The notes beneath the pieces were generated by a model. It saw only the letters and a list, made by a program, of their open reading frames with translations, was not told the DNA's origin and did not search any database. Shown one piece after another: positions 20,865 to 23,740 of a stretch of DNA of 64,000 nt; position 1 is the stretch's first letter, and every line of letters starts with the position of its first letter. Source of the DNA: Acidobacteriota bacterium (GTDB lineage Bacteria > Acidobacteriota > Terriglobia > Bryobacterales > UBA6623); the NCBI GenBank assembly GCA_016125275.1, contig WGMB01000003.1, positions 620,001 to 684,000 of the forward strand, written 5' to 3'. The position numbers and the translations under genes were made by a program.

Positions 20865-22838
20865 ATGTTGCGCTCACGAGCGATTCTTCTTTTCTTCGTC
20901 TCCCTCGTCCTGTCCGTTCCGTCTCCCGGCGCTTCGCCCAAGAGCGGCGCGATGGACATTTTCGACGCGATCCGCCAGGATGACCTGCCCCGGATCGAAG
21001 CCCTCGCCGCGAACGCGCCGATGCGCGAGCAGCGGGGCCCCGGCGGCGTCACGCCCCTGCTCGACGCCGTCGCGTTCGGCAGCCCCGAAGCCGTCGCCGC
21101 CTTGCTGCGGGCGGGCGCGGACGCCAACGCCCAGACCGACCTCGGCGCCACCCCGCTCATCTGGGCCGCCGGCGATCCCGTCAAGACGCGGCTGCTGCTC
21201 GGCGCCGACGCCGACGTCCGTGCTCGCTCCCGCGCCGGCAACACGCCGCTGCTGGTGGCCGCGGCCCGCGACGGCGGAGCCGCCACGGTGCTGCTCCTGC
21301 TCGACCGTGGGGCCGACCCGAACGAGGCTGATGAAAACGGCGTGACGCCGCTGTTGGCCGGCGCCCGCTCCGGTGACCGCCAAACCGTGGAGCATCTGTT
21401 GGCCCGCCAGTGCGACCCCAACCGCGCCGACAAGGCCGGCATGACCGCCCTGCAGTACGCCGCCGGCCACGGCGACCTCGCCATGGTCCGCCTGCTGCTC
21501 GACCGCGGCGCCCGCGTCAACGACGCCAACGTCTTCGGCGGCAAGGTCAAGCACGGCGACGTGGCGCTCAAGGGCCTCACGCCGCTCATGCTGGCCGCTC
21601 CGGCCGCCGACCCCGCCGTGATCGAAGCGCTGCTCGACGCCGGCGCCGCCGTCAACGCCGCCGACTCGCGCGGCATGACGCCGCTGATGCTCGCCGTCTC
21701 CGGCGAAACCCAGGACCGCCGCACCGTCAAGCTGCTGCTCTCCCGCGGCGCCGAGGTCAACGCGGTCAGCGCAGCCGGCGAAACGGCTCTGGACTGGGCG
21801 GTTCGCTTCGGCGACCCCGAGGTCCTGTCCCTGCTGCGGCAGGCCGGCGCCGAGCGCCGCGCCCAGGAGCGCCCCGCCCCCAAGGCGATCGAGCGCCCGC
21901 GAGAGGTCCGTTTGGCCGCCGAACGGGCCATGGAAGCCGTCCAGTCCTCCACCGCGGAGTTCTTCCGCCAGAGCGGCTGCGTCGGCTGCCACCACCAGAA
22001 CCTCGCCATGATCGCCGCCTCCGAGGCGCGCGCCGCCGGCCTGCGCATCGACGACCGCCTGGCCGCCGACGCCGCCCAGCAGGTGATCGCCCAGTGGAAT
22101 ATGTTCAGCCCCGGCCTGCTCGAGCGCATGGACGCGCCCGGCACGCCGGACACCCCCACCTACTCGCTCTTCGGCATGGCCCTCGAAGGCGTGCCGCACA
22201 ACCCCGGCACGGACGCTCTGGTGGCGAACATCGCGGCGCAGCAACACCAGGACGGGAGTTGGCGCCTGACCGGCTTCGCACGCGCTCCGCTCGAGGAAGG
22301 CCACTTCGCCCGCACCGCCATGGCCGTGCGAGCCCTCGGCGAGTACGCGCCGGCCGGCCGCCGCGCCGAGATGACCGAGCGAACCCAGCGAGCCCAGGCC
22401 TGGCTGCTCGCCAACAAGCCGCGTTCCACCGACGACCACGCCTGGAGGTTGCTGGGCCTCTATTGGACCCAAGCGCCGGAACAGCAGATCCGCCGCGCCG
22501 CCAAGAAGCTGCTGGCAATGCAGCAGGCCGACGGCGGTTGGGCGGCCAACCCCTATCTCCCGAGCGACCCCTTGTCCACGGCTACCACGATGTGGGCGCT
22601 GCACACGGCGGGCGTCACCGCGGCCGACGAGGCGCACTACCGCCGGGGCGTGGACTTCCTGCGCGGCAGCCAGCAGGCCGACGGCTCCTGGTTCGTGGAA
22701 AGCCGCGCTCCGAAGTTCCAACCCTACTTCGAGAGCGGCTTCGCGCACGGCCCCAACCAGTGGATCTCCATTGCGGCCACTTCCTGGGCCACGGCCGCGC
22801 TCGCTCCGGCCGCCCGCCTCTCCGGCGCCGCCGATTAG
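20865..22838 (+). CDS. exported ankyrin-repeat / CxxCH / terpenoid-cyclase-like fusion protein
   Basis: This 657-aa protein has three parts. A signal peptide (1-24) leads to about eight ankyrin repeats (about 30-335), seen as repeated GxTPLLxAA and LLxRGADxNxxD patterns. A single haem-type motif, C372-V-G-C375-H376, follows in SGCVGCHHQN. The C-terminal third has alpha/alpha-barrel repeats with QDGSW, ADGGW and ADGSW motifs resembling squalene-hopene cyclase or prenyltransferase repeats, but I see no DxDD catalytic motif. Family knowledge: ankyrins bind proteins and CxxCH binds haem c. The combined role is unknown. The TonB-type secretome around it suggests a periplasmic or surface location. 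It is probably a binding protein, not a cyclase. Confidence 0.8.
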   Translation: MLRSRAILLFFVSLVLSVPSPGASPKSGAMDIFDAIRQDDLPRIEALAANAPMREQRGPGGVTPLLDAVAFGSPEAVAALLRAGADANAQTDLGATPLIWAAGDPVKTRLLLGADADVRARSRAGNTPLLVAAARDGGAATVLLLLDRGADPNEADENGVTPLLAGARSGDRQTVEHLLARQCDPNRADKAGMTALQYAAGHGDLAMVRLLLDRGARVNDANVFGGKVKHGDVALKGLTPLMLAAPAADPAVIEALLDAGAAVNAADSRGMTPLMLAVSGETQDRRTVKLLLSRGAEVNAVSAAGETALDWAVRFGDPEVLSLLRQAGAERRAQERPAPKAIERPREVRLAAERAMEAVQSSTAEFFRQSGCVGCHHQNLAMIAASEARAAGLRIDDRLAADAAQQVIAQWNMFSPGLLERMDAPGTPDTPTYSLFGMALEGVPHNPGTDALVANIAAQQHQDGSWRLTGFARAPLEEGHFARTAMAVRALGEYAPAGRRAEMTERTQRAQAWLLANKPRSTDDHAWRLLGLYWTQAPEQQIRRAAKKLLAMQQADGGWAANPYLPSDPLSTATTMWALHTAGVTAADEAHYRRGVDFLRGSQQADGSWFVESRAPKFQPYFESGFAHGPNQWISIAATSWATAALAPAARLSGAAD

Positions 22839-22863
22839 AAGGGATGAGCCGACTGATTAACAA

Positions 22864-22893
22864 TTGAGTATCTGAAAAGACAACCCATATACC
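22864..22893 (+). promoter_or_regulatory. candidate sigma70-type promoter of the structured RNA
   Basis: TTGAGT (22864-22869) and TATACC (22888-22893) are separated by 18 bp in an unusually AT-rich patch just after the ankyrin gene. The predicted start is near 22900, ahead of a folded region and a terminator. Each hexamer matches the consensus at 4 of 6 positions. Confidence 0.35.
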
Positions 22894-22899
22894 CTCGGC

Positions 22900-23047
22900 A
22901 CATCCCCGTAAAAAAGGATTGCACGGGACGGGAAACCAATGTACCCTGATTTCGCTGGCGTCGCCTGAAATGGTCCGTCGTCCGGCAAACGCGAATCTTA
23001 TCACCCGGACTGGCCCGCCTCCAACCAAGGGCCAGTCCGGTTTTTTT
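22900..23047 (+). ncRNA. candidate structured non-coding RNA, family not recognised
   Basis: This roughly 150-nt segment has no convincing ORF. It contains a long nested hairpin at 22924-22984: CGGGACGG pairs with CCGTCGTCCG, ACC with GGT, ATTTC with GAAAT and GGC with GCC at the tip. Twenty nt later comes a perfect 12-bp terminator. This is the layout of an independent small RNA or of a riboswitch-like leader. The next + strand gene is about 350 bp downstream, which favours a free-standing RNA. It does not show the conserved cores of 6S RNA, 4.5S RNA, tmRNA, RNase P, or cyclic-di-GMP-I, cobalamin or TPP riboswitches as far as I can see by eye. Confidence 0.45.
23005..23047 (+). terminator. 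strong intrinsic terminator
   Basis: A perfect 12-bp stem (CCGGACTGGCCC/GGGCCAGTCCGG) with a 12-nt loop is followed directly by seven T residues. It ends the candidate RNA and possibly also read-through from the ankyrin gene, whose stop is 166 bp upstream. Confidence 0.93.
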
Positions 23048-23395: not shown

Positions 23396-23740
23396 ATGAT
23401 GAGATATCTACTGCCTTTGGCCCTCGTCCTCGCCCTGCCGGCGGTGTCGCAGCAGGCCGACAACATGTGGCAGGGTAAGCTCGTCGACTGGCAATGTAAG
23501 CAAATTGACCAGTCCAAGCCCTGCCCCACCAGCCCCCACACCAAGGAGTTTGCGCTCTCCGGCGACGGCGGCGTGCTCTTGCGTCTTGACGCCAAGGGCA
23601 ACGAACTGGCGCATCAGGAACTAGTCCGCACCGGCGAGTTCGGCAACACGCCGGTGACGATCGAAACCTATGAAGAGCAGCAGGTGGAGCACGTCATGCC
23701 GGTGAAGGCCGTCCACGTGAGGCCCCTCACCCACAGCTAG
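23396..23740 (+). CDS. small exported protein of unknown function
   Basis: This 114-aa protein has a signal peptide (MMRYLLPLALVLALPAVSQQ) followed by about 90 residues with two cysteines (C34 and C43 region, DWQCKQIDQSKPC) that could form a disulfide. It then has a beta-type segment VEHVMPVKAVHVRPL. A TCTACT -10-like hexamer ends 4 nt before the first ATG and 7 nt before the second (23399). The second may therefore be the true start of a leaderless mRNA. It converges on the phosphodiesterase gene. I do not recognise the family. Confidence 0.6.
   Translation: MMRYLLPLALVLALPAVSQQADNMWQGKLVDWQCKQIDQSKPCPTSPHTKEFALSGDGGVLLRLDAKGNELAHQELVRTGEFGNTPVTIETYEEQQVEHVMPVKAVHVRPLTHS

Follow-up and report, generated by a model that had tools for sequence, protein, structure and literature searches.

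Does the DNA between an ankyrin-repeat gene and the strong terminator downstream of it encode an RNA of its own, or is it only the tail of the gene's transcript? The question arises in a soil-type bacterium, in an intergenic region of the window (the whole 64,000-nt stretch of DNA analyzed), where a first-pass annotation had proposed an unassigned structured RNA. The features of the locus, with their positions in the window, are these:

20865-22838, + strand: upstream gene, 657 aa; ankyrin repeats and a CxxCH motif, with the C-terminal part resembling squalene-hopene cyclases.
22839-22905, + strand: AT-rich patch, 55% AT, with weak promoter-like matches only.
22857, + strand: TTAACA, the top-ranked promoter-like site of the scan, 8/12 consensus positions.
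22864, + strand: promoter-like site found by eye, TTGAGT at 22864, 18 nt, TATACC at 22888, 8/12.
22890-23003, + strand: body of a putative RNA, or 3' trailer; fold no better than shuffles, no homologue in the collections searched.
22924-22984, + strand: nested hairpin of the first-pass annotation; possible, with another fold preferred.
23005-23047, + strand: intrinsic (Rho-independent) terminator, 12 perfect pairs (10 of them G-C), 12-nt loop, T7.
23396-23740, + strand: 114-aa secreted-protein-like gene, starting at about 23396.

The terminator is a stable, GC-rich hairpin with a T run directly after it. Its layout is CCGGACTGGCCC-12 nt-GGGCCAGTCCGG-T7, with an energy of -27.3 kcal/mol, and the 12-nt loop, GCCTCCAACCAA, carries CCUCC; the perfect 12-bp stem with seven T, 20 nt after position 22984, is exactly as first described. 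When the gap that holds it was dinucleotide-shuffled 2000 times, a terminator stem of at least 10 bp arose only twice. A gene on the same strand ends upstream, and the next gene of the + strand begins some way beyond. We conclude that the strong transcription stop signal predicted here from the sequence is real. The stop codon of the upstream gene, at 22838, is at its normal place, with homologues aligning to within ~10 residues of the C-terminus. The element was correctly located downstream of the ankyrin gene; its terminator stands 166 nt after that stop codon, in a gap of about 560-580 nt. The upstream protein joins ankyrin repeats and a CxxCH motif to a squalene-hopene-cyclase-like toroid; three genomes of the family encode the two parts in adjacent genes. 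Of 257 genomes of the order, 156 have homologues of the C-terminal, cyclase-like part, often in multiple copies.

Is such a distance usual in this genome? A survey of strong terminators (stem of at least 7 bp, at least 6 T in 8) took in 1.66 Mb on contig C14 plus 0.8 Mb on contigs C1 and C10, together 2.46 of 7.55 Mb; genes were called with a codon-usage script of our own in place of a standard gene-finding program. Of the 38 strong terminators on C14, 33 were intergenic, although only 6.9% of the 1.66 Mb is non-coding, and 28 of these 33 have a same-strand gene ahead of them. Terminators of this type are therefore real in this genome. Across the 2.46 Mb, the distance from stop codon to terminator is 21-80 nt in 26 of the 32 cases with a same-strand gene upstream. 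The queried terminator is one of the six outliers, the other five lying at 200-942 nt; one of those five belongs to the tmRNA, whose terminator served as a stand-apart control. This tmRNA (L096:13003-13359) encodes the tag peptide ANNNTQLAYAA. Separately, the strong terminators at C14:1157483-1157512 and C10:33739-33777 (L185) lie 452 and 942 nt from the upstream gene and 40-66 nt upstream of the next same-strand gene; neither has an Rfam match, and they are possible attenuators or unannotated RNAs.

Outside the window, the same genome provided a positive control:

C14:1576965-1577299 (L150:12965-13299; L204:1636-1970): two small-RNA-like units in tandem, located between divergently oriented genes.

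Each unit ends in a 9-bp terminator (at C14:1577071 and 1577263), and the terminator loops of the pair carry CTCC. By BLASTN, the first unit recurs between genes in five further genomes of the family (L205-L209); the matches span 36-137 nt at 72-89% identity, and the core ACTGCCAnTTGCTTCTCCTTnCGAACCCACAAGA is conserved. Moreover, the pairing of its terminator stem is kept across relatives despite sequence change. This tandem RNA is without an Rfam match and is a candidate for an undescribed RNA family. Taken with the tmRNA, it indicates that a stand-apart terminator can mark an RNA gene in this genome. The identical method detected the tandem RNA in 5 of 17 family genomes and the queried element in 0 of 17; a similarly conserved RNA at the queried site would therefore have been detected.

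Wider searches for relatives of the queried element were likewise negative. None of 4227 Rfam families reached its gathering score in the window, which bears out the early remark that no known core motif is recognizable. Relaxing the search around the site (up to E = 10) brought three chance-level matches, two to small-RNA families and one to a ribosomal leader (E 0.44-8.7). Two families, Acido-1 (RF01686) and Acido-Lenti-1 (RF01687), are listed RNA candidates of Acidobacteria (PMC2864571), the phylum that the first-pass annotation names, and, like the queried element, proposed non-coding RNAs of this group; both were unmatched, at the gathering score in the window as well as in the relaxed search (E up to 10) near the site. 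A separate search for 6S RNA (RF00013) gave no match anywhere in the genome and was positive in 5 of 14 control genomes; the genome is estimated to be 97.6% complete, which leaves a diverged 6S RNA or a real absence.

BLASTN against the genome itself and 60 relatives returned only the element itself. Homologues in related Acidobacteriota, for which the first-pass annotation had suggested looking, were not found in the order (257 genomes) or the phylum (396 genomes): apart from the self match, there were four chance-level fragments of 30-43 nt (E ~1e-3 to 1e-4), covering different or only partly overlapping stretches, at least two of them inside called genes and none with a terminator counterpart alongside. 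The order included 17 further genomes of the family and 239 more outside it, none with a homologue. When the body and its minimum-energy fold were made into a covariance model, this model recovered only the element itself from the genomes of the order, under filters made stricter owing to the number of genomes, and plasmid and phage collections gave no match. Neither similar DNA nor a terminator of comparable strength was seen downstream of the upstream gene's homologues at ~32 loci, and a search of genome contigs with the upstream protein found only distant relatives. The genomes searched included no second species of the same genus; an element confined to the genus may therefore exist, and the searches supplied no homologue in which compensatory changes could be counted.

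We then considered whether the body itself carries a sign of selected structure. The pairs named in the first-pass annotation, CGGGACGG/CCGTC(GT)CCG and ATTTC/GAAAT, are able to form, giving 8 bp with a 2-nt bulge and then 5 bp. The best fold of 22920-22986 that contains both has -17.1 kcal/mol, whereas the minimum-energy fold, at -18.8, pairs differently. The share of 1000 dinucleotide shuffles that were as stable as the body or more so was 63-87% across the stretches considered; the z-scores were +0.82 (22900-23002) and +0.71 (22890-23003), with a range of +0.4 to +1.1 over runs. With the terminator included, the whole stretch has z = -2.0, a value that must stem from the terminator, because the body alone has no such signal. 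Since the body folds no better than its shuffles, it offers by itself no argument for selected structure: the nested hairpin at 22924-22984 was not confirmed as a meaningful element, and the term "structured RNA" for the DNA before the terminator is not supported. The absence of a fitting open reading frame was confirmed, in that only frames of 7 and 9 codons lie before the terminator and a 60-codon frame starting with TTG runs across it.

The stretch ahead of the body had been described as an AT-rich, promoter-like patch. Its AT content is indeed unusual, 55% against a mean of 36%, and only 1.7% of 298 comparable gaps are equally rich. Its resemblance to a promoter is weak, the top site matching 8 of 12 consensus positions, which 11% of comparable gaps equal.

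Taken together, these observations lead us to favor, with modest confidence, an ordinary intrinsic terminator of the ankyrin/cyclase-like gene, preceded by an unusually long 3' trailer of ~166 nt without selected structure. RNA polymerase would read on through the AT-rich trailer after the 20865-22838 gene, and the 12-bp hairpin with its T run would then free the + strand transcript near 23047; we infer that transcription of the gene reaches this terminator and ends there. The trailer has neither above-chance structure nor detectable conservation. The strength of the stem, the mostly intergenic placement of such terminators on C14, the shuffle-level fold of the body, the lack of an Rfam match and of homologues, and the lack of a good promoter in the gap all support this explanation. 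The element resembles the intrinsic terminators at gene ends in its GC-rich perfect hairpin, its T7 and its placement on the upstream gene's strand; it differs from them in its distance from the stop codon. That distance counts against the explanation, as do the presence of the tmRNA and the conserved tandem pair among the stand-apart terminators and the unusual AT-rich patch ahead of the body.

The same three observations speak for the principal alternative, which we regard as possible but doubtful: an orphan, lineage-specific small RNA of ~120-150 nt (~22900-23047), transcribed from a weak promoter of its own or released from the ankyrin mRNA by processing at its 3' end. The mode of action of such an RNA would be base pairing, with the single-stranded CCUCC of the 12-nt loop, a complement of the Shine-Dalgarno sequence, or the unpaired stretch before the terminator as plausible contact sites. 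The terminator loops add a further hint, with CTCC in 4 of 9 stand-apart terminators versus 1 of 24 ordinary ones on C14; this pattern was spotted post hoc and was not replicated on C1 and C10 (0.8 Mb), where counts of 1 of 4 versus 0 of 2 neither confirm nor exclude it. The element shares with bacterial small RNAs, among them the ones that arise from mRNA 3' ends, the stand-apart terminator, the AT-rich patch ahead of the body and the C-rich loop. Unlike them, it is putative, proposed from sequence, and lacks detectable conservation, above-chance structure and a good promoter. The lack of homologues, set beside the tandem RNA found in 5 of the same 17 genomes, speaks against a small RNA, as do the weak promoter match and the shuffle-level fold. 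The more specific proposal, that a species-specific RNA of ~150 nt blocks translation of target mRNAs through the loop CCUCC and is one of several stand-apart RNAs with CUCC loops, the tandem pair being others, seems unlikely to us.

The first-pass annotation had left open a small RNA or a riboswitch. Its strong terminator and the lack of a known family hold; a structured RNA or riboswitch is not supported, since the body is no more stable than its shuffles, the collections searched contain no homologue and the relatives of the upstream gene lack the element. In particular, we think it very improbable that the element is a cis-acting attenuator or riboswitch for the 114-aa gene, in which the body would toggle the terminator. 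The 114-aa gene follows on the same strand, and GTCCGG (22979-22984) could pair with CCGGAC (23005-23010) in the 5' arm of the terminator. We rejected this antiterminator pairing as chance level, a complement of that length or longer occurring in 14% of shuffles; moreover, 6 bp could hardly outcompete a perfect 12-bp terminator, and the downstream start codon is ~350 nt away. Homologues of the downstream gene are weak, at E 5e-8 to 9e-4, and include one paralogue; they yielded no counterpart of the element; the upstream region of the paralogue, the only one viewed in detail, has no such terminator. Nor did any curated covariance model of a described riboswitch class match. Finally, a short translated frame such as the one from ATG 22939 (MYPDFAGVA), with GGGA 5 nt upstream and a stop 36 nt before the terminator, which would put the terminator at the usual 21-80 nt, merits hardly any credence, for it has nine codons and no conserved homologue, and such frames are common by chance.

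If the element is only a terminator, its significance is small beyond annotating the 3' end of the gene. As a small RNA, it would enlarge a short list for the phylum, four distinct annotated sRNAs being listed for Acidobacteria (PMC9029176). The distance test for stand-apart terminators, which picked up both the tmRNA and a conserved RNA unmatched in Rfam, is usable as a finder of RNA genes in such genomes.
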